Of a stretch of 45,127 nt of DNA, positions 2,086 to 25,314 are shown one piece after another. The DNA comes from Bacteroidota bacterium (GTDB lineage Bacteria; Bacteroidota; Ignavibacteria; Kryptoniales; JAKASW01): assembly GCA_023480735.1 (NCBI GenBank), contig JAMCXB010000014.1, positions 1 through 45,127 on the forward strand, in the 5' to 3' direction. The position numbers and the translations under genes are program-made. How positions within the stretch are numbered: the first letter of the stretch is position 1; every line of letters starts with the position of its first letter. The notes under the pieces were generated by a model. It was given only the letters and a program-made list of their open reading frames with translations. It was not told where the DNA came from and searched no databases.

Positions 2086-2484
2086 ATGGAATATGAGATC
2101 AGGAAACGCAGTTACTACTTCTCACTTGAAGTTGTAAAATTTATCAATTTGTTCGATGGCAGGAGAATCAATTTCAGCTTGACCGATCAGCTTTTGAGGT
2201 CGGCAACTTCTGTAGGAGCAAATCTTGTTGAAGCGACGGCAGCGCATTCGAAAAGGGACTTTATTAAGTATTATGAAATTGGATTGAAATCGGCAAACGA
2301 GAGCAAGTATTGGTTGTGCCTGTTCCGGGACGGATTGGATGTCGATAAAGATAAAGTGAAAGAGCTGCTCCAAGAGGCAGTGGAAATTTCGAAGATTGTC
2401 GCAACGATAGTCGTTAAGCTTAAGAAGACCAAAGGTCCAGTTCCTCAAGTAAAAGAAGAGGTTGAGGACTATTTGCCTTTTTGA
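2086..2484 (+). CDS. Four-helix-bundle protein (23S rRNA IVP / S23 family)
   Basis: A 132-residue, mostly helical protein. Its pattern (YYFSLEVVKFINLF, LTDQLLRSATSVGANLVEA, FIKYYEIGLKSANESKYWL) is that of the four-helix-bundle family, first known from intervening sequences in 23S rRNA genes and now seen as stand-alone genes in many FCB genomes. The biochemical role is not established; related proteins form pentamers that bind nucleic acid in the diversity-generating retroelement accessory Avd. A GGGGG run ends just before the ATG at 2086. It has been dropped between two genes of one pathway, and both flanks are AT-rich inverted repeats, which suggests mobility. No rRNA and no reverse transcriptase are near, so neither the IVS nor the DGR setting applies here. 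Confidence 0.88.
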   Translation: MEYEIRKRSYYFSLEVVKFINLFDGRRINFSLTDQLLRSATSVGANLVEATAAHSKRDFIKYYEIGLKSANESKYWLCLFRDGLDVDKDKVKELLQEAVEISKIVATIVVKLKKTKGPVPQVKEEVEDYLPF

Positions 2485-6230: not shown

Positions 6231-9200
6231 ATTTCAATCCTACTTTAATCCGATTCAAACCACGTACGTCGGGTCGCTGACCCGACGACCAGGAAGGATT
6301 TCAATTCTACTCTAGTCCGATTCAAACGCGACGGGGATGGACTTAGGCATAGCTTCCGTGCCGAATTTCAATTCTACTCTAGTCCGATTCAAACTTTCAA
6401 CTCATCGGCCTCATCGACGATGAGAAGCAAATTTCAATTCTACTCTAGTCCGATTCAAACTCTGGTGATCGGGGAAGAGAAAAGCGTGGCATCCTAATTT
6501 CAATTCTACTCTAGTCCGATTCAAACACAGACCGCTTACGCGGTTGTCGACCAGGGTTCCGGATTTCAATTCTACTCTAGTCCGATTCAAACGGAACGCT
6601 CTTTAGTCTGCAAGGAATGACTATGTCATATTTCAATTCTACTCTAGTCCGATTCAAACTCAGCGATTGTGCAGGGCTCGAGATTATTAACGTATGATTT
6701 CAATTCTACTCTAGTCCGATTCAAACATAACTTTACACTGTGACATGATGCGACTGTTTGAATATTTCAATTCTACTCTAGTCCGATTCAAACTGCATAC
6801 CCACTGGGGCCACGAGTATCGCAACTGGAATTTCAATTCTACTCTAGTCCGATTCAAACTATCGCTGATAGGCTCATTTTTTTAAAAGCATAAAAAATTT
6901 CAATTCTACTCTAGTCCGATTCAAACTGACAAGTGTTGAATCACCATTAACAAGATTTCGTAATTTCAATTCTACTCTAGTCCGATTCAAACGCGTTTTC
7001 GCCTCTTTCCCCTGATCTCAACATTTTGCATTTCAATTCTACTCTAGTCCGATTCAAACTGATAATTCAGGTTATGGACTGCCGCAGTTGTGCTAATTTC
7101 AATTCTACTCTAGTCCGATTCAAACGGATCACGCGTTCTTCAATCGGTGACAGGTCAACAGAATTTCAATTCTACTCTAGTCCGATTCAAACGCTGCACA
7201 GGAGATGCTTGCTGCATCGCAGGCAGAACCATTTCAATTCTACTCTAGTCCGATTCAAACCATAATCGCTTGCTTGATAGCTGCCCGTTTCGGCCTCATT
7301 TCAATTCTACTCTAGTCCGATTCAAACCTTCAATCTTAGCGGCATTATGAGGCCGTAGATGTCATTTCAATTCTACTCTAGTCCGATTCAAACTGACAAG
7401 TGTTGAATCACCATTAACAAGATTTCGTAATTTCAATTCTACTCTAGTCCGATTCAAACATGGTGGTACATCCTGCTTACATCTTGCGCCATCTCTATTT
7501 CAATTCTACTCTAGTCCGATTCAAACCATATCTAGTCGCATTCTATGCCTTTCGTTATTTTTATTTCAATTCTACTCTAGTCCGATTCAAACGGAATTGG
7601 AAATAGCTTCTTCCGTTCGCATCATATAATTTCAATTCTACTCTAGTCCGATTCAAACCTTATCTCTGTCGCTATCGCGCAAGCGGCGTTATCAAATTTC
7701 AATTCTACTCTAGTCCGATTCAAACTTCGTAGGGCTTCTGTGCCACCGTTACGAACTTCCAATTTCAATTCTACTCTAGTCCGATTCAAACTCGGGTCCC
7801 ATCGCTCTTCATATTCAACGCTTAACCATATTTCAATTCTACTCTAGTCCGATTCAAACGCAGAAAGGGAATATGAAAGAAGTCCAGTTGGTAACATTTC
7901 AATTCTACTCTAGTCCGATTCAAACCATAATTTCCGATTTCTATATCGGCTCCCAGATATGATTTCAATTCTACTCTAGTCCGATTCAAACCAATCTTTA
8001 TGCGGCTGTACAAGAATGGTGTGAACTGATTTCAATTCTACTCTAGTCCGATTCAAACCGAGATCGATAGCGACTGTATCAAGGAGGCGTACTCAATTTC
8101 AATTCTACTCTAGTCCGATTCAAACGCGATTACACGTTCACCGATCCACTCGCGCAACTTATTTCAATTCTACTCTAGTCCGATTCAAACCGTCGCCGCA
8201 CGCTTCCTCGATGATCGTCATATCGATATTTCAATTCTACTCTAGTCCGATTCAAACGAAACTACACTTCATCCGTATCGGCGGAGCGGTCTAATTTCAA
8301 TTCTACTCTAGTCCGATTCAAACTATGGAAGCTTCCGATTGCTATGTCGAAGTTAAAAATATTTCAATTCTACTCTAGTCCGATTCAAACAAATAAATCG
8401 TGCAGTATGCAGCGCCAATATTGTTATATTTCAATTCTACTCTAGTCCGATTCAAACGGGATATAAACCGCCGAGGTAAACGATACCGAACCTATTTCAA
8501 TTCTACTCTAGTCCGATTCAAACGGCTATTCATGTTTATGATCGTGCTGCTGTTTTCGATATTTCAATTCTACTCTAGTCCGATTCAAACTACATTGCCA
8601 TATTGATTAAGCAGAGTGTTCAAATATATTTCAATTCTACTCTAGTCCGATTCAAACGGGGCGGTGCGGGTGAGATGATGTACCACTATCCACATTTCAA
8701 TTCTACTCTAGTCCGATTCAAACCTTCTCAGGAGGCTGTTTTGCCGACAGCAACTCACATTTCAATTCTACTCTAGTCCGATTCAAACGCAAAATCACGA
8801 CGAAACTCAATCGAGACGACTGCGATTTCAATTCTACTCTAGTCCGATTCAAACCCAAATCGGAGTCACACGGCAGCTCGATGTGATTGCATTTCAATTC
8901 TACTCTAGTCCGATTCAAACCATCATACCAAGACGCTAAGGTGATAACGGAAATAAATTTCAATTCTACTCTAGTCCGATTCAAACGGGACGGGCAAGGT
9001 CCCAGGAAAATACCTGCAGATCTAATTTCAATTCTACTCTAGTCCGATTCAAACGGGACGGGCAAGGTCCCAGGAAAATACCTGCAGATCGAATTTCAAT
9101 TCTACTCTAGTCCGATTCAAACGAATTGTGACTGCGGATATTCGAGCTACGGAAACAATTTCAATTCTACTCTAGTCCGATTCAAACCTTTGTGGTCTTC

Positions 9201-10646
9201 CGCGATCCGGGCGATGTGGTGAAATTTCAATTCTACTCTAGTCCGATTCAAACTGATCGACCGAGTCCGTGAGACCTGCGAGTGATTCCATTTCAATTCT
9301 ACTCTAGTCCGATTCAAACTTGGAAAAAGGATTAGTACTCAAAATTAAATCTCCATTTCAATTCTACTCTAGTCCGATTCAAACCAAACGATGAGAACGA
9401 GTTTGCCAGCTTTTAAACCGATTTCAATTCTACTCTAGTCCGATTCAAACAGGAACCAGCCGTGCGCAATATACCCCCTGTGTCTTATTTCAATTCTACT
9501 CTAGTCCGATTCAAACCGTGGACTACAGCATCGGTTTCCGTCCCGCTTTTGTATTTCAATTCTACTCTAGTCCGATTCAAACACGGACGGCCCGAAGGGA
9601 TAGAGGCAATACAGACCAATTTCAATTCTACTCTAGTCCGATTCAAACGTCGGCTCCTCACACTGGCCGAGCACGATGCTATGCATTTCAATTCTACTCT
9701 AGTCCGATTCAAACAATAACGATAACCGTTGCCGCTGGAGGCGTTGCCGGATTTCAATTCTACTCTAGTCCGATTCAAACTCAGACCAGCAGACACCGGC
9801 TCTGTTTGACCTGACGAAATTTCAATTCTACTCTAGTCCGATTCAAACATCAAGAATCCATAATGGGAACGAACGACTACAAGCATTTCAATTCTACTCT
9901 AGTCCGATTCAAACTGCCATTACCGTGTTCGGCGAGACGCGCGAGCCAGCCCATTTCAATTCTACTCTAGTCCGATTCAAACGCCGTGGAGGACAGTGGT
10001 AGTTTCCAGCCGTACCTTCATTTCAATTCTACTCTAGTCCGATTCAAACGTGGTCGAGGAAGGTGGACGCGGTAGCGGCAAGTCAATTTCAATTCTACTC
10101 TAGTCCGATTCAAACGCAGCGACCGGCATTGACTTCTCGCAAGTCGACCTCATTTCAATTCTACTCTAGTCCGATTCAAACCGCGCCGGACGCTGTGCGT
10201 TACCCGGTGCATACCCACATTTCAATTCTACTCTAGTCCGATTCAAACGGTATTATCTCGCCAGACTCATGCGCTGGAGATCGGATTTCAATTCTACTCT
10301 AGTCCGATTCAAACCAATGACCGCCCCGTTGAGCGCCTTGCAACGCGTCTATTTCAATTCTACTCTAGTCCGATTCAAACTATAGAATTGAAATGAGAAT
10401 GCCAGGCGACGAGTTCATTTCAATTCTACTCTAGTCCGATTCAAACCTCCACCTCAACGGGTGGATTGCCGGAGAGGCGAAGCGATTTCAATTCTACTCT
10501 AGTCCGATTCAAACCGAAGAGGAAGAGGTTGTTGCAACACAAGAAAATTCATTTCAATTCTACTCTAGTCCGATTCAAACCCAAGAAGAGCCGACGCGGC
10601 CTCGGTCGCGTAAGTCATTTCAATTCTACTCTAGTCCGATTCAAAC
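6231..10646 (-). CRISPR. Type I-B-like CRISPR array, 67 repeats and 66 spacers
   Basis: Thirty-base direct repeats recur every 66-68 bases from 6231 to 10646. On the plus strand the unit begins ATTTCAATTCTACTC and ends TAGTCCGATTCAAAC. Spacers are about 36-38 bases. By direct count there are 67 repeats. The left-most copy (6231-6260) has three substitutions (positions 9, 15 and 18 of the unit); the others I read are uniform. In the crRNA direction (minus strand) the repeat starts GTTTGAAT and ends AGAATTGAAAT, giving an ATTGAAAT 5' handle as expected after Cas6 cleavage in type I-B. A degenerate distal end, a promoter at the right end and cas2 just beyond all agree that the array is read right to left. 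The spacer at 6927-6962 recurs at 7394-7429, and adjacent spacers 8987-9024 and 9055-9092 differ at one base. Confidence 0.98.
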
Positions 10647-11014: not shown

Positions 11015-12142
11015 TCACCACCACGCCCTGAACGCTTTGTATACTTCACCTGACATGAGATGGTTCACTAATTTGTATGCTTCCAACCTTATCAGGTGCC
11101 TGTAAGATACATTCCTCCCAAGCGAACGGTGCTTTATCGTCGTCTTCAATCGCTCGTCATATTCCTGCAGAACTATCTTTCTTCCATTCTCCTCCAGATA
11201 ACAAAAATTCAATTCCTTTCTGAAATGCTTTTCCTGGATTTGCTTGTTGTTGAGCAGCTTGAAGATCATCCTGTCTGCAAGTATAGGTTTAAATATCTCG
11301 CTCAGGTCGAGCGAAAGAGAATACCTCCGCTCTCCGGGGCCATGCAGGAAGCTTACCGTAGGATTCAGGTGCGTATGATAGATTTCGCTGAGTACAGTTG
11401 AGTACACCAGTCCGTTCGAGAAAGACACAAGGGCATGGGACTTGTTGTCCGGCGGATGCTTCGTTCTCTTGTCAAGTGAAAATTCCTGGCCGACAATTTG
11501 CTCCCAACACCTGTAATATCGTTCGCGTATGTTTCCCTCCAGCCCCATCAATTCTTCGGTGGTCTGAACATCGCATATCGAGCTGCGAAGCGTCTCGATC
11601 TCGTCTATTGCATCGGAGAAGTCGATCTTTCTGTTCGCATTTTCCCTCGAAGGATTGGAATAGTATTGCAGATTCTTCACGATGTTGAAGGAAGCCGCAT
11701 CGATTATTTCCTTTGCAATAATTACGCGCCGGGTTGTATCCAGGTAAGCACGCACCTGCTCCACCACCGTGAACCCGGAAGGGAGATACTCACGAGGGAG
11801 ATAACTTCCGCTGTAATGACCGTAATAATTAAAAATGTGAAGCGGGATCTTCTGGCGCGAAAGGAAATTGAAAAATTTCGTATTGAAGTCCATCTCTCCG
11901 AAGCAATAGAAGGCTTCAATGTCTTCGACGGGAATCGGCTTGCGTGCCACCCTGCCCGTACGGGCATCTTTCTGCGACTCTTCAGTGAAACCTGCCAGGA
12001 GCTCTTCATCGATTCCCGGATCCGTCATTAACGGTTCAACAATACCTTCTTCGTTTTCGACTGTCTGCACAGGTTCGAAGAAAACAGTATTTTCTTTTCT
12101 TCTCAGCCTGCCCGATGTCATGATGTAGTACGGTCGTTTCAT
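11015..12142 (-). CDS. cas1: CRISPR integrase Cas1 with an N-terminal-domain insertion
   Basis: A 375-residue protein with a standard Cas1b start (MKRPYYIMTSGRLRRKENT) and end (VSYRHLIRLEAYKLVNHL ... FRAWW). Catalytic residues are visible: Glu202 in MGLEGNIRERYY, His267 in FLHGPGERR, and Asp279/Glu282 in SLDLSEIFKP. Family members are usually 325-345 residues. The excess is a segment at about residues 27-67 (QTVENEEGIVEPL ... ARTGRVAR), rich in Glu/Asp/Thr, inserted between the first beta strands and KPIPVEDIEAFYCFGE. Its ATG overlaps the upstream cas4 stop by four bases (ATGA). It integrates prespacers with Cas2; the insertion could contact Cas4 or Cas2, which is inference. Confidence 0.95.
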   Translation of the reverse strand: MKRPYYIMTSGRLRRKENTVFFEPVQTVENEEGIVEPLMTDPGIDEELLAGFTEESQKDARTGRVARKPIPVEDIEAFYCFGEMDFNTKFFNFLSRQKIPLHIFNYYGHYSGSYLPREYLPSGFTVVEQVRAYLDTTRRVIIAKEIIDAASFNIVKNLQYYSNPSRENANRKIDFSDAIDEIETLRSSICDVQTTEELMGLEGNIRERYYRCWEQIVGQEFSLDKRTKHPPDNKSHALVSFSNGLVYSTVLSEIYHTHLNPTVSFLHGPGERRYSLSLDLSEIFKPILADRMIFKLLNNKQIQEKHFRKELNFCYLEENGRKIVLQEYDERLKTTIKHRSLGRNVSYRHLIRLEAYKLVNHLMSGEVYKAFRAWW

Positions 12143-12663
12143 GTGTTAGTCCAGCATAGTTCAAAGTAGCTGCATTTCTTGCAGAATGTTCTGTTTATCC
12201 TTTGCGGTGGCAGCGCCTGAGAAATGATCCTTTCGATATCGGCCATCGCAGTTTCGAGTTCCTCTCTTTTCACCTGCGTCAGTTCCACGGCAGTTTTTTG
12301 CTTCAGCAAAGGGTAATCGATTTCTCCTGTTATTCCATCAACTCCTTTGCATTTCAGATACCAGATGTAAAAGAGCACCTGCATCTCGTGTGCTTTTTCA
12401 ACCGAATTGCTCTTTTTCACTTCATGGATGACGCCACTATCCTTGTCAATCCAATCGATATTAATTACTCCGTCTATGTCAACGTGCTTGTCTTCTCGTG
12501 AATAGGAGTTCTCATCGACGACTTTGCCGGTGTAAACCGTATCCGAGGTGTGCTCCATTTGCAGACCGCGTGAGAAGAGCCAGAGCTTCCGATGACAGAC
12601 GAAGTAGTAATTTATGTCCGTGCCGGTTACTGAGCTGGTGGAGCGGAATCGTTCCATAGTCAT
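12139..12663 (-). CDS. cas4: Cas4 exonuclease, leader-proximal copy (cas4 copy A)
   Basis: A RecB-like nuclease with an iron-sulfur cluster that trims prespacers and selects PAM ends for Cas1-Cas2. Cys in YYFVCHRKLW and the trio in FCKKCSYFELCW form the cluster; MEHTSD, DGVINIDWID and IHEVKKS give the metal and catalytic positions. It is about 70 percent identical by eye to the second copy at 13860-14357 over its full length. The frame is open upstream to 12732, but that extra N-terminus has no counterpart in the other copy. ATGs at 12663 or 12657 are more plausible, though neither has a clear ribosome binding site. The gene lies immediately downstream of the transposase cassette and overlaps the cas1 ATG by four bases. 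Confidence 0.93.
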   Translation of the reverse strand: MTMERFRSTSSVTGTDINYYFVCHRKLWLFSRGLQMEHTSDTVYTGKVVDENSYSREDKHVDIDGVINIDWIDKDSGVIHEVKKSNSVEKAHEMQVLFYIWYLKCKGVDGITGEIDYPLLKQKTAVELTQVKREELETAMADIERIISQALPPQRINRTFCKKCSYFELCWTNT

Positions 12664-12837
12664 GGCTTTATCACGGCAGGGAAGATGTGTTCCCCGGTTT
12701 GGCGTGCGTACCGGCATTTTTGAAAAATCCATGCTTCACTCTGTAAGATGATGTGCCGGGATCTAGCCGAACGGACATTTACGTGAACTGGCGAGTTCCG
12801 TTGTCTGGCATATCTACGCTTCGTCATGAGCCCTGCA

Positions 12838-13497
12838 TTAGTTTATTAAGTCCGGTCTTACGTACGACCATGGCCATTGCTCCCAAGATTCCACTAGTCC
12901 GGATTTGACCGGATTATTTAGCACGTACCGGATAGTGCGGTCAAGCTCATCAGCATTTCGCACGATGTGGTCGTAGCTTTCGTCTTGCCAGAAGGCCCCG
13001 GAGCGATCTAAGATGAGATTAGATCTTGTAGCCGTGTGGCGTTTCAAAGATTGCATGACTCGGAACAGCGGCTTGTACGTCGGAATGTCATTCCGACATA
13101 CTTTTACAAGTAGCGAAAACACCATGTGTACATGATTGGGCATTATGCTGTGTGCCAGCAAATCGTATTCCTTGCCGTCACGGTAATGGATAGCTTCATT
13201 GACTATCGAGGCAACCGCCGGTTCTTTCAACCAGCGCAGCCCGCCGGAATCAGTATGCAGCAGCGTATCGAACCTTTCGAAATGCGTCCATTGAAGTTCT
13301 TGGAGGAGTCTCTTCTCCTCTCCCTCCTCAACATCACTGTTAAGAAGCATTCTCTTGGCTTCCTCCCGCTCCGCACGTAGTCTCTCTATTACTTCACCAG
13401 GAAGCGATCCCTTCAGTCTAAAAGTGACATGGTATGTCGCATCCGGCGGCTGCCAGTGCGGCAAATGACGGCGATAGAATTCTTTTTGTTCAGTCAT
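12838..13497 (-). CDS. REP-associated tyrosine transposase (RAYT, IS200/IS605-like Y1)
   Basis: A 219-residue single-domain Y1/HUH transposase. It has MPNHVHMVFSLL (the HUH motif HVH) and, near the C-terminus, GAFWQDESYDHIVRNADEL with the candidate catalytic Tyr, then TIRYVLNNPVKSGLV and WPWSYV; all are signatures of domesticated RAYT proteins. These nick at REP palindromes. Between the HUH part and PLFRVMQSLKRHTA there is an odd segment, KVCRNDIPTYK, that is encoded by a near-perfect palindrome (13079-13097). A related palindrome lies directly upstream of the start (13506-13524). The gene sits between the two cas4 copies and reads in the same direction as the cas genes. Confidence 0.9.
   Translation of the reverse strand: MTEQKEFYRRHLPHWQPPDATYHVTFRLKGSLPGEVIERLRAEREEAKRMLLNSDVEEGEEKRLLQELQWTHFERFDTLLHTDSGGLRWLKEPAVASIVNEAIHYRDGKEYDLLAHSIMPNHVHMVFSLLVKVCRNDIPTYKPLFRVMQSLKRHTATRSNLILDRSGAFWQDESYDHIVRNADELDRTIRYVLNNPVKSGLVESWEQWPWSYVRPDLIN
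13079..13097. repeat. REP-like palindrome inside the RAYT gene
   Basis: GTCGGAATG, one base, CATTCCGAC: nine-base perfect arms. It lies in frame in the transposase gene and encodes CRNDIPT in the unusual segment. Confidence 0.8.
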
Positions 13498-13502
13498 ATT
13501 AG

Positions 13503-13527
13503 TATGTCGGAATGTTATTCCGACTTA
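13503..13527. repeat. REP-like palindrome upstream of the RAYT start
   Basis: GTCGGAAT, GTT, ATTCCGAC at 13506-13524, with GTA/TAC extending the stem after one mismatch. It shares its arm sequence with 13079-13097, so it is the likely cognate REP of the transposase. It also provides the stop region of the ORF at 13515-13835. Confidence 0.8.
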
Positions 13528-13835
13528 CGTTTTGTCACGCCAGCCCAGAAGCGCTGATGCTGAAGGGCTTCCCGCGTCAAACCTGGACGATCCAGATACG
13601 ACGGCAAATCGAGCAGCCAACTGACGACGTCCGCTTCCGTGGTTTCTTCTATTTCCCGAATGGACTCTTCAGTCGGACACGACCCGGCAAGGTCCTTAGC
13701 TAACTCATAATGCCTTTTCACCGTTTTGTCGTCAAGCCTGTCTCTGGAAGACTCCAATTCCACAACGCACTCGATAATTGAATTCATGAAGGATTCAGGG
13801 AGTTCGTATTTCAGTTCATTGTTTTTGCTTGCCAT
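13515..13835 (-). CDS. Hypothetical protein between cas4 copy B and the RAYT gene
   Basis: A 106-residue, soluble, rather acidic frame starting MASKNNELKYELPESFMNSIIECVVELESSRDRLDD and ending with a basic KRKSE. I do not recognise a family; predicted content is helical and no catalytic motif stands out. AAGG lies about 6 bases before the ATG. It begins 24 bases after the cas4 copy B stop and is co-directional with the cas genes. Its last codons and stop fall in the REP palindrome, so the C-terminus may have been altered by that element. Whether it came with the transposase or is an accessory of the cas operon cannot be decided from sequence. Confidence 0.55.
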   Translation of the reverse strand: MASKNNELKYELPESFMNSIIECVVELESSRDRLDDKTVKRHYELAKDLAGSCPTEESIREIEETTEADVVSWLLDLPSYLDRPGLTREALQHQRFWAGVTKRKSE

Positions 13836-13859
13836 ACTTAACCTTTCAGCACACTTGCT

Positions 13860-14357
13860 TCATACTCCGGCCCAACATAATTCATAATAGCTGCAAGTCT
13901 TACAGAACTTCTTATTAATCCGATCCGGGGGATGGGCTTGCTCAGCAATTGCTTTGATACTCTGCATTGCTTCTTCAAGCTCTTCTTTCTTTTCTTGTGT
14001 TAGCTCCACTTTAGTTCTTTGCTTTAGCAACGGGTAATCTATCTCAGCAGTGACGCCCTCAACGCCCTTGTGCTTGAGGTACCACAGATAGTACAGTACC
14101 TGCATCTCGTGGGCCTTCTCCACAGAGTCGCTCTTCTTCACCTCATGTATGACACCAGTGTTTGTATCGATCCAGTCGATATTAATAACTCCGTCAATGT
14201 CGATGCCTTTATCTTCACGGGAATAAGAAGTCTCATCGATCACTTTTCCCGTATAGACAAGATCAGAAGTGTGTTCCATTTGGATATTGTGAGCAAATAG
14301 CCATAGCTCGCGTTTGCAGACACAATAATAGTTTATGTGGGTTCCTGTTATTTGCAT
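13860..14357 (-). CDS. cas4: Cas4 exonuclease, cas3-proximal copy (cas4 copy B)
   Basis: A 165-residue Cas4 starting MQITGTHINYYCVCKRELWLF. The iron-sulfur cysteines (Cys14 and FCKTCSYYELCW), MEHTSD, the DGVINID region and IHEVKKSD are all intact, as is AHEMQVLYYLWYL. The ATG at 14357 shares one base with the cas3 TGA, which fixes the start and shows tight coupling; an upstream in-frame start would lie inside cas3. This is probably the original cas4 of the operon, since its position directly after cas3 is normal for type I-B. The second copy lies about 1.2 kb further on, beyond the transposase cassette. Both copies keep every key residue, so both may be active. Confidence 0.94.
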   Translation of the reverse strand: MQITGTHINYYCVCKRELWLFAHNIQMEHTSDLVYTGKVIDETSYSREDKGIDIDGVINIDWIDTNTGVIHEVKKSDSVEKAHEMQVLYYLWYLKHKGVEGVTAEIDYPLLKQRTKVELTQEKKEELEEAMQSIKAIAEQAHPPDRINKKFCKTCSYYELCWAGV

Positions 14358-17005
14358 CAGTAGAAATTGCAATCCGTTTCAATATCAGCTTTCAAGCCTT
14401 CATCGTAAGAATAAATCTTCTCATAGCCTTCCAGATAAAGGAAACCGTATTTGAACTCTTCCCCGTCCGAGTAGTGCTTCAACAAACCAATCTGATTCCT
14501 GTTATTCCATATGCTGAAAGAAAACTTGGACAGAATAGGAGATAGAATCTTCAAATCTATTTTCTTGTCGATAAAATCGATATTACGATTGTTAATAATT
14601 GCGGCGTACAATTGCCAGACTTTCGCACCACTGACTTCGTTTTCTCCATCACCGAGAACTTTTGCTAACCGTAAAAACCCCAATTCTCCATGACTGAAAT
14701 GGCAAATGCCGATTCCCAGCGGTACAAATACACTAACAGCATTATCTTTAATTAACTCGAATTGCTTATGAACCTCCCGGAAATCTAGTCTGCTAATCTG
14801 GCTCTGAAAATCCGACAGATTATTTGCTCGATATTGGTCTCTGTTTGCTTCATTTATGCTCTCAAAAACCTTGTCATAAAACGAGTCAAAATCTTTCTCG
14901 GAAAGGATCCTTTTGTACGCTTCAAGGTCTATATGCTGTTTGTGTCGCAGATCGCTTCGGTATGTCTTTAAGCTGTCCTGCGAATTGAACAAAACAAGCT
15001 CACAATTGGATTTTGAGGCGTTGCGATTTATTCTTCCCGCTAATTGTTCCTCAGCGTCAACAATTGACTTGTCTTTGAAGCCGATATCCATGTCAATGTC
15101 CAAGCCCGCTTCAACTACCTGTGTTGAGACAACAATAACCTTCCCTTTGCTGATCTCGTCTGACTTCAGATAATCAATGGTCTCTCTCCTCCGTGGCTCA
15201 AGAACGGTACCGGACACTATGCGCTTTTCGTAACCTTCAAACCTTTTATCATCCTTTAACTTTTCATAGAACTTTTGTGCAGATATTTTGGTAACGAATT
15301 CGATGATGGCTTTGACCCCTTTTTCTTTCGCGTAATATGCCTCAGAGTGTTTGTACACGATGGACAATAAATCCTCCGGTGAATATTCTTCCGATTTGAG
15401 ATAATCAAAGCGAAAGACGACCCTGTTCTTAAAGTTAGGATTCCGAAAATATTTGTCTTTATTCTCGACTAAGTAAACGAAGTTGTCCTTCTGTTTACCG
15501 TCTTTGTTTAACAACAGTTTGCTAATTTTCGGCAAAGTCGCAGACATCACGATGAACGTAATGTTGAACAGTTCAGAATAGGAATTCAGCAAGTAATTTA
15601 TCTTGTCCCATTCGGACGGATTGTAAGACTGAATCTCATCAATAATGACAATGGAATTGGCAATGCGATGAAGCAGATAGTTCGTTTCCTTTTCATTGGA
15701 TGTAAGGATATCAAAGAACCTGATATGAGAGATGAGACTAACAGGATAATTAACAAACAAATTATCAATGTAATTTTTCCTTTTTGTCCCATAGTCTTCT
15801 CCGTCTCCTTTGTCGTGGTAGGGAGCTCTTGAATGAATCTCCGCAAGTTCAGCTTGCTCAAGATGCAAGTTGTCTCGGATGAAGCTTGCTGTTTGAGTAA
15901 TGAGCGTTGTAAAAGGAAAAACATAGAAGACTTTGGTAATGTCCTTGCGTGCTTTCAGGAGTTCTGCTAAACAGAGAATGGAAAGGTTGGTTTTTCCCGA
16001 TCCCGTTGGCGCTTCGATATAAAACAACTTTCTCTCTTTATTCTTTTCCAGATTGTTCAGCACCTCACACGACAGTTGTTGCCTTAGTTTGTTAAGGTTC
16101 CCGTTTGAAACTAACGGAAGAACCTCAAATTGTTCTGCTTGATACTTGGCTCGGTTTTTTAGAAGATCATGATTATACGAAATACTAAACGCCCCGTTGT
16201 ATATCTTATTTCTCAGTCCATCGTCGAGAACTCCAAAATCCTCACATCTTATTCCAAGCATAAATTCATTGGTTGCGTAATAGTCCGCCGCCGTAAGGAG
16301 CGAAGAATTGAGCTTGAGAAGAGAGAATAGTTGAAATGATGATTTGGTTCGACTAAGCTGCTCGAAAAACTGTTCTTTACACTTTAAGGCAGTCGTGAAC
16401 TTGTCTTGCTGAAAATTTGCCGTGGATTTGAAAAGATGTCGATACCTCACTAAAGAGTCTTTGTTTAGATCACCATATTCAGGATTCGATATTTCTCCAT
16501 GGTGCTTGATAATAGGATGAGCAAAGAGCAGGTCAAGCAGAAACAGGAATCTCTTATCATTATCGGTGAAAGAAGATCGATCTAAATCCTCAAATCCTGA
16601 TGCAACGAACAAGTAGGCACTGAGAATTGAATGGTCAGAAGCAATACCGTTATTCACTCGCTTAAACACATGGTTTTCCATTTTCTCGACCTGGAAGTTC
16701 TCATTCACTTTCCCAAAGTCATGAAAGACAATTGACCTAAGAAAAAGAGACTTTACAAATACCACAGCTTCTGTTGATAGACTTTCCAGATTTGTCCGAC
16801 ACACCTCACTAACGACTCCATCGATAATTGGTTCTAATCGATTTGCTTCAATCAACCGTAGAGCATAATCGCGGGTCAGAGCTATATGGTGAGCCAGTGA
16901 TTCTTTACGATCATCCTTCCAATGAGCATAGTATTTGTCCGCGTTTTTCAAGACCTTAGACAAGTCCATTGGGATGTTTTGTGATATTTGTTCAAAAGTA
17001 ACCAT
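14357..17005 (-). CDS. cas3: Cas3 helicase-nuclease
   Basis: An 882-residue effector that unwinds and shreds DNA marked by Cascade. The N-terminal HD nuclease shows AHHIAL (His39/40) and VFHDFGK (His95-Asp96). The helicase part has Walker A EAPTGSGKT (331-339), Walker B IIDEIQS (DEIQ at 456-459), MSATLP (motif III), and the C-terminal RecA motifs VVSTQVVEAGLDIDMD and EEQLAGRINRNAS. Length and order (HD first) are normal for single-chain Cas3. It starts 5 bases after the cas5 stop and overlaps cas4 copy B by one base. No frameshift or lost motif is seen, so interference is probably functional. Confidence 0.96.
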   Translation of the reverse strand: MVTFEQISQNIPMDLSKVLKNADKYYAHWKDDRKESLAHHIALTRDYALRLIEANRLEPIIDGVVSEVCRTNLESLSTEAVVFVKSLFLRSIVFHDFGKVNENFQVEKMENHVFKRVNNGIASDHSILSAYLFVASGFEDLDRSSFTDNDKRFLFLLDLLFAHPIIKHHGEISNPEYGDLNKDSLVRYRHLFKSTANFQQDKFTTALKCKEQFFEQLSRTKSSFQLFSLLKLNSSLLTAADYYATNEFMLGIRCEDFGVLDDGLRNKIYNGAFSISYNHDLLKNRAKYQAEQFEVLPLVSNGNLNKLRQQLSCEVLNNLEKNKERKLFYIEAPTGSGKTNLSILCLAELLKARKDITKVFYVFPFTTLITQTASFIRDNLHLEQAELAEIHSRAPYHDKGDGEDYGTKRKNYIDNLFVNYPVSLISHIRFFDILTSNEKETNYLLHRIANSIVIIDEIQSYNPSEWDKINYLLNSYSELFNITFIVMSATLPKISKLLLNKDGKQKDNFVYLVENKDKYFRNPNFKNRVVFRFDYLKSEEYSPEDLLSIVYKHSEAYYAKEKGVKAIIEFVTKISAQKFYEKLKDDKRFEGYEKRIVSGTVLEPRRRETIDYLKSDEISKGKVIVVSTQVVEAGLDIDMDIGFKDKSIVDAEEQLAGRINRNASKSNCELVLFNSQDSLKTYRSDLRHKQHIDLEAYKRILSEKDFDSFYDKVFESINEANRDQYRANNLSDFQSQISRLDFREVHKQFELIKDNAVSVFVPLGIGICHFSHGELGFLRLAKVLGDGENEVSGAKVWQLYAAIINNRNIDFIDKKIDLKILSPILSKFSFSIWNNRNQIGLLKHYSDGEEFKYGFLYLEGYEKIYSYDEGLKADIETDCNFY

Positions 17006-21232: not shown

Positions 21233-21928
21233 CTACTTCTGTGCAGGTTGGTTTGCCGGCGGCGGCTCAGGCGGCCTGTGCCTCGTGCCGGTATCCTTTA
21301 TGGTACGCGCGGACTGGTACTCATTGTAAAAGCCCGGATGCTTTTCCCTGAGGAGCTCCATCAAATTGTCCAGGTCCTCGAGGTCGTCGTCAACCTTTGC
21401 GAAAAGATCGGACACAGCCTTGCGAGCCCCCTTCCTCTGAGCGACGCCGCTCTCGCGCCCGCCGATCGACTTATCGTACGCCTCGATCTTTGCCGAAAGA
21501 CCGGTGAGCACTTCCGGTGTTATGTTGAAGGTGGCAAGCTCCGTCACAATTTTGAGAGCCTCGGCATGGATCAACTTTCCCCTTGTCACGAGCTCTGTGT
21601 CGCGCAGCCGGCGAAGGGAAGTCTCCGTAACGCTCGCCTTCTCCGCAAGCTCCGGATCCTTCTCGCGCTTCGCGACAACCTTCAGCGCAGAGGCGATTGG
21701 AAGCAGCGCAAAAATAAGACTATCCTCCGCGTCCCACTTTACCTGCGTCTTCCCCGCTGCAACGTTGCCGTACACGAGCAGCTCCCCGTTCAGCTCCGCC
21801 ACGTCGGCCTTGAAATTAGTCTTCGTAATTTCGAATGCCGGAATTTCGGCGGTCTTGTCGGCGTTCGCATCCAGCAGCGTATCGACCGCCTTGTGCATTG
21901 TCGCCCTGTCTTCCTGCCCTTTGTTCAT
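21233..21928 (-). CDS. Unknown helical protein with Pro-rich tail, lodged in the cas region
   Basis: A 231-residue protein of unknown function. It begins MNKGQEDRATMHKAVDTLLDANADKT and is predominantly helical and charged (coiled-coil-like stretches around residues 70-110 and 160-200). It ends in a low-complexity tail, RPPEPPPANQPAQK. There is no signal peptide and no catalytic motif I recognise. GGAGG lies just before the ATG, which overlaps the stop of the preceding heptad-repeat frame by four bases (ATGA). It is co-directional with cas6, TPR and cas8. The gene at 24316-25314 has the same general plan (7-residue repeats, helical region, Pro/Ala/Asn/Gln tail), suggesting one family. I know no Cas protein like it. 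Confidence 0.7.
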   Translation of the reverse strand: MNKGQEDRATMHKAVDTLLDANADKTAEIPAFEITKTNFKADVAELNGELLVYGNVAAGKTQVKWDAEDSLIFALLPIASALKVVAKREKDPELAEKASVTETSLRRLRDTELVTRGKLIHAEALKIVTELATFNITPEVLTGLSAKIEAYDKSIGGRESGVAQRKGARKAVSDLFAKVDDDLEDLDNLMELLREKHPGFYNEYQSARTIKDTGTRHRPPEPPPANQPAQK

Positions 21929-22317
21929 TTTTCTCCTCCTGATTTTGAGTTATGATTCAGTGATTGAAGCACGACTTGCAAAGACCACGCTTTATTGCAC
22001 ACCCAATTGGCGTTATTCTCCTGTTTTCCAACTCTTTTGATGAGTGCTCGCCGAGAAACGGCCGTTGCTCGATCAGAAATTGACATTGTGGCACTCGAAG
22101 TTGACAATGTTTCACTCAAACCTGCCGATGTTCTTGTACAACCATTCAATGCTTGACTGCAAACCTCCAATGCTTCACGCGAAATTGACAATGCTTCATG
22201 TGAAACGAACAATGCTTGACACGAAATTGACAATGTTTCATACGAAAACGCCATTGTTTGGTGACCTGGCGCCATTGATTGTGTCGAACCATCCAATGCT
22301 TCATACCAAATCTTCAT
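21925..22317 (-). CDS. Heptad-repeat frame (7-residue repeats), uncertain gene
   Basis: A 130-residue frame whose first ~95 residues are about ten imperfect 7-residue units of the form S-x-x-A-L-S-I (for example SYETLSI, SCQALFV, SHEALSI, SREALEV). The ATG at 22317 follows the TPR gene stop by only 8 bases, and the stop overlaps the ATG of the helical protein. That spacing argues for translation in the cas direction. Against it: no good ribosome binding site, and a 21-base periodicity keeps several frames open on both strands. Fused 7-residue repeats precede the helical part in the related gene at 24316-25314, which supports coding. Function unknown. Confidence 0.45.
   Translation of the reverse strand: MKIWYEALDGSTQSMAPGHQTMAFSYETLSISCQALFVSHEALSISREALEVCSQALNGCTRTSAGLSETLSTSSATMSISDRATAVSRRALIKRVGKQENNANWVCNKAWSLQVVLQSLNHNSKSGGEK
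22045..22310. repeat. Degenerate 21-nt tandem repeat tract
   Basis: On the plus strand, units of the form CAATGCTTCA-NN-CGAAATTGA follow each other every 21 bases; the clearest run is 22145-22265. About ten to twelve units, with drift at the ends. The period equals seven codons and also two turns of B-DNA. Confidence 0.75.
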
Positions 22318-22325
22318 CGCATCTT

Positions 22326-22808
22326 TCAGTTCGAACCGGGCGTTTTATGTTTCACCAAATTCCACTTTGCATCCATGTTGGCGGGATATTCATCGACCGC
22401 CTTTCTCCACGCATCAACCGCCTCTATGCCCGATCCTCTTCGCCACAGAAATTCGCCGAGAGTATTCAGATAGTCGGACCTCGCAAGATGAGAGCCTGGA
22501 GGAGTAACGGAGAGCGCCTTCCGCAGATATTTTTCCGCGATATCGTATCTCTTGAGTCTCATATAAACACATGCAAATGAAGATTCGATTATGTGATTGT
22601 CCCCGAACAGGCTTTCCGCATTCCGGAGCCGCTCTATTGCGCGCTGTTGATCTCCCATGTCTGAATAACACGACGCGATCTGAGCATGGAGCAGCGGTTC
22701 TTCCGGGAATTTCACAAGCACAGTCTCTGCGAGTCTGAGTGCGTCGGCAGCTTTCCCCTCCTTGAGCAACCTCATAATCTGTGAGAATTGTCTTTCAATG
22801 TCGCCCAT
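22326..22808 (-). CDS. Tetratricopeptide-repeat protein between cas6 and cas8
   Basis: A 160-residue TPR protein: ADALRLAETVLVKFPEEPLLHAQIASCYSDMGDQQRAIERLRNAESLFG, then IIESSFACVYMRLKRYDIAEKYLRKALSV and YLNTLGEFLWRRGSGIEAVDAWRKAVDEYP, i.e. three to four repeats with the usual A-x-x-Y/F and P-terminal spacing. No signal peptide, so cytoplasmic; TPRs mediate protein-protein contacts. The ATG at 22808 is preferred because AAGGGGG lies 9 bases upstream; an earlier ATG at 22829 is possible. It begins 55 bases after the cas6 stop and ends 8 bases before the heptad-repeat frame, so it appears to be in the same transcript as cas6. Confidence 0.85.
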   Translation of the reverse strand: MGDIERQFSQIMRLLKEGKAADALRLAETVLVKFPEEPLLHAQIASCYSDMGDQQRAIERLRNAESLFGDNHIIESSFACVYMRLKRYDIAEKYLRKALSVTPPGSHLARSDYLNTLGEFLWRRGSGIEAVDAWRKAVDEYPANMDAKWNLVKHKTPGSN

Positions 22809-22863
22809 CAATCCGCCCCCTTGCTTCACGGAATTTCATTTTGTGATTCTGCCATTTTGCTGT

Positions 22864-23676
22864 TCACTTCCTTGTCATTTCTTCAATCATTCCGAATCCC
22901 AGCGAATTCTTCTCGCCCAGCCCGCTGTCGTAAGCAAGCTTTATCAGCTCCGGATTTCCTTCGATCGTCAACGGACAAAGAAAGGCCCGAATCTTTGTCT
23001 CCGATAGTTGTCCCTCTTTAATTGTGACCAATTGTGTTACCCTGTCGCCTTTTTGTTCTCGATCAGCAATGAAAGAACCGTCAAGAGTGCAATCAAAACG
23101 AGTATCGTCGGGGAGTGTGCTATGAAGCGATTGGTATTTGTTCAGAATGTTCTTTCGCAGAAGATATCCTGCGCGCGCGTCGTCGTGGAACAAATATACC
23201 GGCATCATCCTGCCGTTTCTCATTTCGGGAACAGAAACTGAAGTCGGCGACAGCATTCGAAACCCCATTCGCTCTTTCCATGCCGGCTCGGGAAGTGTTT
23301 CCACTTGCTCGACGATAAAACGGTTCTCTTCATGCTCGATAAAGAATTCCCGCCTTTCGAAAATGCCTGTTACAAAATGCTGCAGCGATTCTTCCACGGG
23401 CATTGAAACAAGCCAATCAATTGTCGGAGAGAGAATGACGATTCTACCCGGCAGCGTGCGAGTATCACGCAGTGCAATATTAAGCCGGGAAAAACAGAAA
23501 TGTTTGAAATTGCGGTGCACATGCTCCGGAGAGAAACCCTGCTCGTGCAGGAATTGAGAATAACCTGGCGAGGACTTTTCTATCCAGCGATAAATTGCCG
23601 CAGAAAGATAATACGGATAATTAAATGTAATGCTGCTTTTACTCGAATGAGGGCGAAGAACCAAACGCAAACGCAA
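22864..23676 (-). CDS. cas6: CRISPR RNA endonuclease Cas6
   Basis: A 270-residue RAMP protein that cuts pre-crRNA in the repeat. The N-terminus MRLRLVLRPHSSKSSITFNYPYYLSAAIYRWI is the usual first strand plus the L/Y-x-x-A-I-Y helix; the C-terminus AYDSGLGEKNSLGFGMIE is the glycine-rich loop that defines Cas6. A His in the N-terminal helix region (LHEQGFSPEHVHRNF) may be catalytic. Start: TTG at 23676, chosen because AGAGGAG lies about 7 bases upstream and the fold begins right there. It is the most upstream cas gene but is separated from cas8 by three non-cas genes, about 1.9 kb. Confidence 0.93.
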   Translation of the reverse strand: MRLRLVLRPHSSKSSITFNYPYYLSAAIYRWIEKSSPGYSQFLHEQGFSPEHVHRNFKHFCFSRLNIALRDTRTLPGRIVILSPTIDWLVSMPVEESLQHFVTGIFERREFFIEHEENRFIVEQVETLPEPAWKERMGFRMLSPTSVSVPEMRNGRMMPVYLFHDDARAGYLLRKNILNKYQSLHSTLPDDTRFDCTLDGSFIADREQKGDRVTQLVTIKEGQLSETKIRAFLCPLTIEGNPELIKLAYDSGLGEKNSLGFGMIEEMTRK

Positions 23677-24183
23677 ATTGAATCTCCTCTGAGGATTTCA
23701 AAAAACGCCGATAATCGAGACCTTTTCTATGTGTTCGGTGGCAAACCCAAATAGAGTCTCTTTTTATGACTCTACTTTAACCTTTGACTCCTGGCTTACC
23801 GCTTCTATATTTGCCTTTCCCATCGTCCTTAATGGGGGCGCTTTCATTTTGCGCTGATCGTCACTCTACCTGAACTATTCTCTCCGTTGTATTCACTCGC
23901 TCCCGAGTCTTCCGTCACCGACATCTCATACGCCATTTTCCAGTTCACTCTGACTATTCCTTCCTGTCAGAATATATCCGTAACACTTCTTAAAATCAAA
24001 ATTTCCCGGTCCGGATGAGCGTTTAACGATTCGAAAGGCGGCTTGTTGCAAGGCTGACACGGACGCCGTGACCGCGGAATATCCTTTCATTCCGCCCCCA
24101 TCCTTCGACGGGGTGGACTCCCGCCGGAACCCAGAACTAAGAGTATTCTATGCCCATTTATTCGCATTACGGTTCCAGCGTTT

Positions 24184-24228
24184 CTGGATGCCAGCTTTTA
24201 CTGGCATGACAACAAGCCGGCATCCAGT
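24184..24228. repeat. Palindromic dispersed-type element (CTGGATGCC...GGCATCCAG)
   Basis: Outer arms CTGGATGCC and GGCATCCAG enclose a nested hairpin, ATGCCAG-CTTTTA-CTGGCAT. This resembles the small REP/NEMIS-like elements with a CTGGAT...TGACA layout seen in many genomes. Only one copy is in the window. Confidence 0.55.
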
Positions 24229-24266
24229 TTCTTAGAAGCCTGCCTGGGGTGCCACGATTGTGAAGC

Positions 24267-24296
24267 CCCGCTGCACAGAGAATGCTGTGCAGCGGG
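24267..24296 (-). terminator. Hairpin after the heptad/helical gene
   Basis: CCCGCTGCACA, 8-base loop, TGTGCAGCGGG: perfect 11-base arms, 20 bases beyond the stop of the minus-strand gene at 24316. No U-run follows, so termination by an intrinsic mechanism is uncertain. Confidence 0.5.
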
Positions 24297-24315
24297 TGTC
24301 AGCTCACGGCGCCTA

Positions 24316-25314
24316 TTACGCCGCCGCTCCCGCGGGCGGCGGAGTGTTGTTTTGCCCGCCAGGGCCTCGCCGCCTGGTTATCGACTCGAACTCGATCAGT
24401 GTTGACGGCTCATCGGCGAAAACTGATCTGGCAGTGTGCTGTATTTTGCGCATCGTCTTCTGGAGAGCTTCCATCGCATTGTCCCGATCCTTCGTCGCAG
24501 CCTTCTGCTTCTTCTTCGCGGTTTCCTGGTCTGCGTCGATCTGTGACAATTCGTCGGCTGCTGTACTCAGTGACTCGATTTGCCCGTCCTTCACTCCGTG
24601 CTTCGCCAAGTCGGTCTTGTTAGCCAGTGCAACTTCCTTAATGTACTTCAACTCCGTGACTAGCCCCTTGACTGTCTTCGGAATGTCCTTTCCCACGTGG
24701 AACTCGTGCATTTTCGGGCCGTCGCCTTCACCATAAGCCCCCTTTGCCGCCTCTTTCATCCTCTGAATTGAGATACCGCCCTTCTCCAGCTTGTTGTTTT
24801 GATTTTGATTCGTTCCCAAGTCTATGTTGGAAAACCGGCGAAACATTGCGGTCAGATCAGAATCACCTCCAAATTCATCAGAAATCGATGTCGAATTGAC
24901 AGGAATCACATCGTTGTATAGAGGAAAGCCGCTGGCAAGGAGGGGAATGCAGTTAGTAAGCAGAGGAATGCAATTGGCAACGAGAGGAATACTATCGGTA
25001 ACGGCAGGAATGTCGCTGGAAAGCGGAGGAAAGCCGTCAGTGGTGCAGGGAATGTCCTCGGTAACAGGAGGCGAGCCATTGGCAACCGTGGGAATCCGAT
25101 TGGAAACCGTAGGAACCCCTCCGGAAAAATGGGGTAAACGGCTGGATTGGCGGGATAATGCCCCTCTCCTGTCATACAACTTATCCGCAATGCTGGTTAA
25201 CAAGCCTGTTTCACCCCGCACCTTTCTATCGGGAGCGCTCCGGCACGCAGAAACCGGATCGCTATCGCCGTCATGAGTAAGCCACTTCTCGTAAAGATGA
25301 ATCCACATCCGCAT
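24316..25314 (-). CDS. Heptad-repeat plus helical protein of unknown function
   Basis: A 332-residue frame in three parts: a 65-residue N-terminus of doubtful start; about ten imperfect 7-residue repeats (VSNRIPT, VANGSPP, VTEDIPC, VTDSIPL, VANCIPL, LTNCIPL and others); then a helical, charged region (NKLEKGGISIQRMKEAAKGAYGEGDGPKMHEFHVGKD ... TAKKKQKAATKDRDNAMEALQKTMRKIQH) and a GGQNNTPPPAGAAA tail. No signal peptide, no known domain. The repeats are 21 bases long, the same period as at 22045-22310 but with a different consensus. The gene reads towards cas6 but is about 640 bases from it and ends in its own hairpin. The start at 25314 is uncertain; the core could begin well downstream. Confidence 0.55.
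   Translation of the reverse strand: MRMWIHLYEKWLTHDGDSDPVSACRSAPDRKVRGETGLLTSIADKLYDRRGALSRQSSRLPHFSGGVPTVSNRIPTVANGSPPVTEDIPCTTDGFPPLSSDIPAVTDSIPLVANCIPLLTNCIPLLASGFPLYNDVIPVNSTSISDEFGGDSDLTAMFRRFSNIDLGTNQNQNNKLEKGGISIQRMKEAAKGAYGEGDGPKMHEFHVGKDIPKTVKGLVTELKYIKEVALANKTDLAKHGVKDGQIESLSTAADELSQIDADQETAKKKQKAATKDRDNAMEALQKTMRKIQHTARSVFADEPSTLIEFESITRRRGPGGQNNTPPPAGAAA
24905..25135. repeat. 21-nt tandem repeat tract inside the gene at 24316-25314
   Basis: Plus-strand units of about GGAATG-C-N-(A/G)-TTGGNAACNGNA recur every 21 bases, for example starting near 24945, 24966, 24987 and 25008. They drift strongly at the right end. Confidence 0.75.

Follow-up and report, generated by a model that had tools for sequence, protein, structure and literature searches.

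Two 21-bp arrays beside helical-protein genes

We examined a 45,127-nt contig (JAMCXB010000014.1, referred to as the window) from a 2.81-Mb draft genome of a Bacteroidota bacterium (G000:C35), in which two loci each carry a tandem array of 21-bp units upstream of the coding region of a small helical protein. We call the helical protein of the first locus P1 and that of the second locus P2. The first array consists of 13 units with the consensus GAAGCATTGGCAGTTTCGAGT (22,051–22,323, minus strand, delimited by Tandem Repeats Finder and a lag-21 score) and begins right behind the stop codon of a TPR gene. A spacer (21,929–22,050, minus strand) leads to the open reading frame (ORF) of P1 (21,233–21,928, minus strand), which encodes 231 residues according to the ORF list, is helical in its structure model, and has its own ribosome site, AGGAGGAGAAAA, adjoining the ATG (by eye). 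The second array, delimited in the same way, has 11 units with the consensus ATTCCTCCCGTTACCAACGGC (24,928–25,158, minus strand), and the helical part of P2 lies at 24,316–24,846 (minus strand; about 177 residues, counted from the first in-frame ATG past the array). Lag-21 scores reached 46.3 for the first array and 34.4 for the second. Twenty versions of the whole window resampled with a first-order Markov model scored 10.6 at most, and the best score at other lags in the real window (lags 14–40 except 20–22) was 11.5; both 21-bp arrays are confirmed as real.

Each array is crossed by an open frame, and the first-pass annotation, made from the sequence alone, had read these frames as tracts of 7-residue repeats, coupled to a helical protein at the first locus and fused to a helical region at the second. 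Much of its description held: two tracts of 21-nt period near helical proteins without functional assignment, P/A/N/Q-rich tails on both helical ORFs, a common reading direction, and one architecture with a different consensus at each locus. The heptads fared less well. At the first locus, the tract is present and the heptads lie in a 130-aa open frame (21,925–22,317, minus strand) separate from the P1 ORF, which we judge to be a by-product of the 21-bp period and no gene. At the second locus, a 332-aa open frame (24,316–25,314) does run through the array, but the translated fusion did not stand: we saw no convincing start by eye, and the upstream part of the frame (24,847–25,314, minus strand, from the ORF list) is probably not translated. 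The window copy of P2 appears truncated at its N-terminus: in the seven relatives compared, at least 50 residues of protein-like open frame occupy the place taken here by the array.

A helical protein family with recurrent upstream arrays

AlphaFold2 models of both proteins are all-helical (predicted local distance difference test scores of 86.1 for P1 and 82.2 for P2). The P1 and P2 profiles align as homologous (hhalign probability 90.7, E 1.3e-6), making the two proteins distant homologues by profile comparison. P1 has paralogues on two other contigs of its own genome (G000:C3, 63% identity; G000:C70, 27%). Among 294 sampled genomes of the class, 43 contain P1-type matches (E ≤ 1e-5, 23-row alignment), at up to nine places per genome; of 395 genomes of the phylum, 17 do, three of which fall outside the class. 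Relatives of P2 occur in 26 of the 294 class genomes (E ≤ 0.001). The first-pass annotation had named a lack of homologues anywhere as a sign of a chance open frame, and such homologues exist. Ratios of nonsynonymous to synonymous divergence (dN/dS) were 0.12, 0.06, 0.19 and 0.15 in four gene pairs, the last two with synonymous divergence (dS) above 1.3, and dS was saturated in two further pairs; these values support purifying selection on the family genes.

Each of the 17 P2-type rows has a match to NCBIfam NF052641, ‘PQLLE family protein’ (best E 4.1e-15). The NCBIfam description gives no function, and the name was not found in the literature searched for it. Window P2 scores 50.2 bits, under the curated cut-off of 80, and is not counted as a member; window P1 matches marginally (12.6 bits, E 0.08), and relatives in other genomes pass the cut-off. 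Beyond this, P1-type rows gave scattered family matches of one or two members each (best E 0.0013), none of them convincing, and a best E of 0.031 against PDB sequences, while P2-type rows gave nothing convincing in Pfam, PADLOC or PDB. Foldseek returned no match at E ≤ 0.001 for P1 (PDB and viral structures) or P2 (PDB); weak S23, LemA and Avd-like bundles in the P2 list (E 0.7 to 4.2) are a lead only. By eye, a separate ORF of the window (2,086–2,484) resembles S23/four-helix-bundle (Avd-like) proteins of Bacteroidota. A tblastn search with P1 had no match in a plasmid collection (72,556 records) or a phage collection, and a pattern scan with one P1 relative had none in viral contigs.

We called an array upstream of a locus when the score reached at least 12 at lag 20–22. 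By this measure, 50 of the 63 P1-type loci carry an upstream 21-bp array, compared with 5/63 at six control lags and 5/37 downstream regions. When the period was not preselected (lags 15–65), the best lag was 21, 42 or 63 in 50/63 upstream regions, 3/37 downstream regions and 20/63 genes. Control genes scored at least 12 in 9 of 130 cases; by coordinates, seven of these nine share the array of a family gene, one sees a 22-bp array at the 3′ end of a family gene, and one (12.2) is without explanation. Upstream arrays were likewise found at 24 of 29 P2-type loci, at seven of the eight PQLLE members over the cut-off (L241–L245, L256, L257 and L264, the last scoring even higher at control lags), and at 17 of 20 weaker PQLLE matches with enough upstream DNA, loci that partly overlap the earlier sets. 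Very distant relatives in two genomes (G106 and G025) had an array at 17 of 18 usable loci (20 fetched), many of these matches having E above 0.001 and being uncertain as single homologies; the array of L225 lies about 2 kb upstream of the gene. In G106, 14 of 15 examined places had an array. Arrays also occur at places outside the class (L116, L117, L118, L130, L144, L244 and L254), and a survey of 306 kb surrounding family genes held 15 lag-21 segments scoring at least 18, every one of them upstream of a family gene. The pairing of arrays with helical-protein genes is thus supported at most examined relatives. Rfam (15 loci) and literature titles, with subscription papers and preprints mostly outside coverage, held no description of the array or the pairing. 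On sequence grounds, the array–protein pairing appears new, its protein half being related to an already named NCBIfam family.

Units are near-identical in some arrays (match about 0.95 in L054, L055 and L059). Units of 22 bp were seen at L175 and at L184, where the array lies at the 3′ end of the family gene, on its downstream side. Fragment loci scored at least 12 in 5 of 11 cases versus 50 of 63 for P1-type loci; we make no claim of array decay at broken copies because the fragments may include contig ends. Among the distant relatives of G106 and G025 (L221–L240), open frames are mostly about 310–420 aa and several contain two profile matches in one frame, a domain duplication; G106 has 21 places matching the family profile at E up to 10.

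Conservation within and between the arrays

One turn of B-DNA takes 10.5 bp, and 21 bp, the spacing to which the arrays keep closely, make two turns. Fourier analysis of the information content around the 21-column unit placed most power in harmonic 2, at 10.5 bp (z = 8.7, 70 arrays), ahead of harmonic 1 (z = 6.6), and the 10.5-bp signal recurred in 38 P1-type arrays (z = 6.1), in 31 other arrays (z = 6.4) and in the 61 arrays left once close relatives had been removed manually (z = 7.5). A smoothed null with equal neighbour correlation exceeded it in 1 of 1000 cases. In 16 held-out arrays from other places, added afterwards, 10.5 bp alone among the harmonics fell below p = 0.05 (z = 3.9, p = 0.0005; harmonic 3, p = 0.061), and the P2 array showed the signal singly (p = 0.0066). 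The two conserved blocks of the unit differ in bases, matches at lag 10 or 11 not being raised. Conservation at the DNA-helix period, the mark of a phased DNA-binding array, is therefore present, and such a trace would be expected if a protein contacted the duplex on a single face once per turn. A/T and AA/TT content carried no 10.5-bp signal in the 70 arrays, and intrinsic curvature by phased A-tracts was rejected on this ground. They follow a period of 7 bp instead (z = 4.8 and 5.6), for which the 10.5-bp reading does not account.

We consider it very improbable that the tracts are coding 7-residue repeats of variable-length proteins, as the first-pass annotation had proposed. Codon-position conservation reached p < 0.05 in 1 of 72 arrays where 3.6 were expected by chance, and in 41 of the 72 every sense frame is interrupted by a stop. 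Besides the open frames that cross both window arrays, open frames exceed the number expected from column permutation in the sense direction (31/72 versus 17.4), as coding would have it, but also in the antisense direction (33/72 versus 22.5); an excess alike on both strands suggests composition rather than coding. The 3-bp harmonic was at or below the null (z = −2.9 in 70 arrays, z = −0.9 in the held-out arrays). Spacing departures divide: the held-out arrays depart from 21 by three bases (18 twice, 24 once) and never by one (none of 20 or 22), in favour of coding, while the 72 arrays, a set chosen by lag-21 score, have 887 intervals of 21, 10 of 20, 6 of 22, 1 of 24 and none of 18, that is, 16 one-base departures versus one of three bases. 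Within the window, codon-position p values were 0.45 for the P1 array and 0.07 for the P2 array, leaving a borderline case for a coding contribution at the P2 array alone. Coding heptads are thus unsupported by the codon-position, stop-codon and harmonic tests. The other idea of the first-pass annotation, an array of in-phase binding sites, fares better: the phasing is borne out by the 10.5-bp conservation period, and binding would be the predicted part. Taken as a whole, that earlier interpretation is partly supported.

How the arrays change was followed in pairs of related loci. In the paralogue pair L023/L031, 296 aligned array bases contain 37 differences and no indel (Jukes–Cantor distance, JC, 0.137), set against a gene dS of 0.355 and a spacer distance of 0.467 with 58 gap columns, and purifying selection on the array is supported in this one well-aligned pair. 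The 159 bases before the array are the most conserved non-coding part (JC 0.073). Within this stretch, both loci carry, by eye, a 12-bp perfect inverted repeat (TGTGTAAAAGAA / TTCTTTTACACA), possibly an operator or a terminator. L010 and L039 share one locus, with 69% identity between the genes and 74% between the downstream neighbours, but blastn does not align their arrays, in line with the repeat turnover suggested at the outset, though the unit profiles keep a similarity of 0.56. Arrays within one genome mostly differ in consensus. Proteins of higher identity nevertheless have more similar arrays (Mantel r = 0.26, p = 0.0005, 38 arrays), with an array similarity of 0.292 in four between-genome pairs at ≥50% protein identity, and the orientation of the unit to the gene is kept (P1-type pairs: same-strand similarity 0.332, opposite 0.246, permuted 0.288). 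By these comparisons, the arrays turn over between loci yet track protein similarity.

A predicted protein–array module, its rivals and its setting

We propose a two-part module, a small helical-protein gene with a non-coding 21-bp tandem array upstream, in which the array would be a row of double-stranded DNA binding sites along one helix face, iteron-like in form and yet no iteron system. We judge this reading to be evenly balanced between right and wrong. The pairing, the missing codon structure, the near-constant spacing and the conservation at the helical period are the supported parts of this reading. A protein would fill the array, and the product of the adjacent gene is the most likely binder because array similarity follows protein similarity. 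Less securely, the resulting nucleoprotein filament may act in cis on its own gene and perhaps on its neighbourhood. Iterons and partition-site arrays exert control of this kind, and autoregulation or local cis control is our working choice for the role of a filament here. More speculatively, and with considerable doubt, the pairs might be private and self-recognising, each family member assembling along its own array only, which would provide many insulated nucleoprotein switches per genome. Protein and array would then perhaps change together in conflict with mobile elements, a notion that would fit since the presence of the family is patchy and copies lie at two CRISPR-Cas loci of the window genome.

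A number of observations weigh against the proposed module. On the side of the protein, no DNA-binding fold was recognised for P1 or P2 with Foldseek, and P1-type proteins are mildly acidic (median isoelectric point 5.97 in 63 proteins, 19 above 7). An acidic isoelectric point is unusual in DNA binders; that of window P1 (5.71), together with the lack of a known binding fold, speaks against direct binding by P1, while P2-type rows are basic (partial sequences). Arrays are also missing where the module would have them: 13 of 63 P1-type loci miss the threshold, all seven checked family copies of one genome (G247, e.g. L077–L080) are without an array, and of eight P1-type loci added later, full or partial and three of them in G247, two reach the threshold (L212 clearly, L213 barely at 12.0). 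The period itself has weak points, since harmonic 2 does not significantly exceed harmonic 1 under the smoothed null (89/1000), that null misfits harmonics 9 and 10, and the P1 array taken singly gives p = 0.085. In L023/L031, conserved columns of the unit changed about as often as others (19/176 versus 21/160), and in the gene-proximal part of L052/L065 the array (JC 0.183) changed as much as the spacer (0.169), with a dS of 0.341. Below 45% identity, array and protein similarity are only weakly correlated (r = 0.07, p = 0.09), and below 28%, arrays resemble each other more between paralogues of one genome than between genomes (0.118 versus 0.040), the reverse of the 28–35% range (0.021 within versus 0.053 between genomes). 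Finally, P1-type arrays are purine-rich on the gene strand in 34 of 40 cases, which could point to RNA.

The main rival is an RNA reading, because several arrays almost touch the start codon: those of L009, L017 and L021 reach to about 50–65 nt from it, leaving little promoter room. The array would be transcribed as a leader, and the downstream protein would bind its repeat units, as happens in type III toxin–antitoxin systems. The architecture of those systems is the same, with repeats ahead of a single gene, in its orientation and differing in sequence between loci (PMC4627078). The purine bias, the position of the first window array directly behind a co-directional gene and the conserved stretch before the array of L023/L031 would all suit a transcript. 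Yet folding of the first 12 units of each of 72 arrays did not rise above a column-permuted null (mean z = −0.24, 4 below −2), so that RNA structure in the arrays was rejected; 15 loci had no Rfam match, P2-type arrays are not purine-rich (16/32), and a 10.5-bp conservation period is expected of duplex DNA, not of single-stranded RNA. We therefore think the RNA reading unlikely, if well worth keeping in view.

A shared host factor, acting as silencer or activator, might instead bind the array, with the helical protein an effector under its control. The consensus mostly differs among the arrays of one genome, and array similarity rises with protein identity between genomes as well, neither of which a common factor would lead one to expect; we hold this, too, to be unlikely. 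It would nonetheless make sense of the same-strand similarity above the permuted null across all P1-type pairs and of the more similar arrays of distant paralogues within a genome. It might also suit a possible regulon of the first window motif, which has 14 matches in the genome with one mismatch allowed, a count that includes one match inside the array and one place counted on both strands, compared with 5 for the reversed control. As for neutral minisatellites that happen to lie upstream of family genes, slippage does make and homogenise tandem arrays without function, and some family loci lack arrays; set against this are the single unit length at most loci, the location of arrays at family genes in the surveyed stretches, the patterned conservation within the unit and, in the one pair L023/L031, fewer changes than at synonymous sites with no indel in 296 bp. 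We give this explanation very little credence.

The predicted module was also compared with known systems. To the NCBIfam PQLLE family it is tied by the P2-type matches and the arrays upstream of members, window P2 itself differing in its sub-threshold score. Iteron units have lengths near 17–22 bp. Iteron origins carry tandem direct repeats beside the gene of their binder, which binds cooperatively; setting two iterons half a helical turn apart abolishes the cooperativity (PMC4980987). Our loci share with such replicons tandem repeats of about two turns that adjoin a putative binder gene. They differ in that no Rep family, winged-helix or fold match was found (P1-type: Pfam, NCBIfam and PHROGs; P2-type: Pfam and NCBIfam), that a genome holds several module copies, and that P1 had no match among the plasmid records. 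Type III toxin–antitoxin systems (ToxIN, CptIN, TenpIN) share tandem, same-strand repeats upstream of one gene that vary between loci (PMC4627078). Here, by contrast, one 21-bp unit length prevails at most loci, the 72 arrays show no excess of stable folds, and the protein is all-helical without a ToxN-, CptN- or TenpN-like or known toxin-family match. TIGR-Tas also joins a non-CRISPR repeat array to one protein gene; its units consist of two alternating 8–12-nt repeats with variable spacers of about 9 nt, giving 36-nt RNAs, and the protein has a Nop domain (PMC12045711). The present arrays have a 21-bp unit, near-uniform in some, rather than dual repeats with variable spacers, and neither 23 P1-type nor 17 P2-type members match Nop. 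Plasmid partition sites with ParB/ParR-like binders pair a private array with its own binder gene. The likeness extends to the private array and a predicted binder gene; P1- and P2-type proteins have no ParB/ParR match, and no ParA/ParM-like family appears among the 25 of 87 neighbour families listed. In form, then, the module seems most like an iteron or partition array, yet the protein part of both definitions fails.

P1 and its array are embedded, in the same orientation, in a type I-B cas cluster: on one side are cas6 (22,864–23,676, minus strand) and the TPR-repeat protein gene (22,326–22,829, minus strand), immediately followed by the first array, and on the other side are the remaining cas genes. 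P2 lies upstream of cas6. The cas genes named in the window are cas1b, cas2, cas4, cas3, cas5b and cas6; two ORFs of 432 and 604 aa have no NCBIfam match, and their assignment to Cas7 and Cas8 goes by position alone. The C3 paralogue of P1 adjoins cas3 and a type I-C cas5. Elsewhere, we found no steady gene neighbour: 62 of 192 called ORFs from 20 stretches gave 87 Pfam families, and among the 25 of these listed, none occurred in more than four proteins. Restriction-modification, AbiLi-like and Cas9-like matches lie near family genes, among 25 of 222 families listed; a possible defence association of the family is only a lead. Two further features of the window were noted. A long CRISPR-like array spans 7,429–10,249, its repeat, ATTTCAATTCTACTCTAGTCCGATTCAAAC, being about 30 bp long. 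At 12,139–14,372, two cas4-like ORFs (12,139–12,732 and 13,860–14,372), very similar by eye, flank an ORF (12,838–13,497) that looks by eye like a small REP-type transposase; cas4 would thus be duplicated, with the two copies separated by an insertion.

The array-free family genes of G247 should be useful for studying the role of the protein alone, and if binding fails, the same loci would serve to test the RNA alternative. A two-turn array beside a family without an assigned function, its sequence turning over from locus to locus, offers many natural protein–site pairs. Should binding be borne out, these loci would make up a new class of bacterial chromosomal elements that act in cis, and the functionless NCBIfam PQLLE family would gain a first handle.

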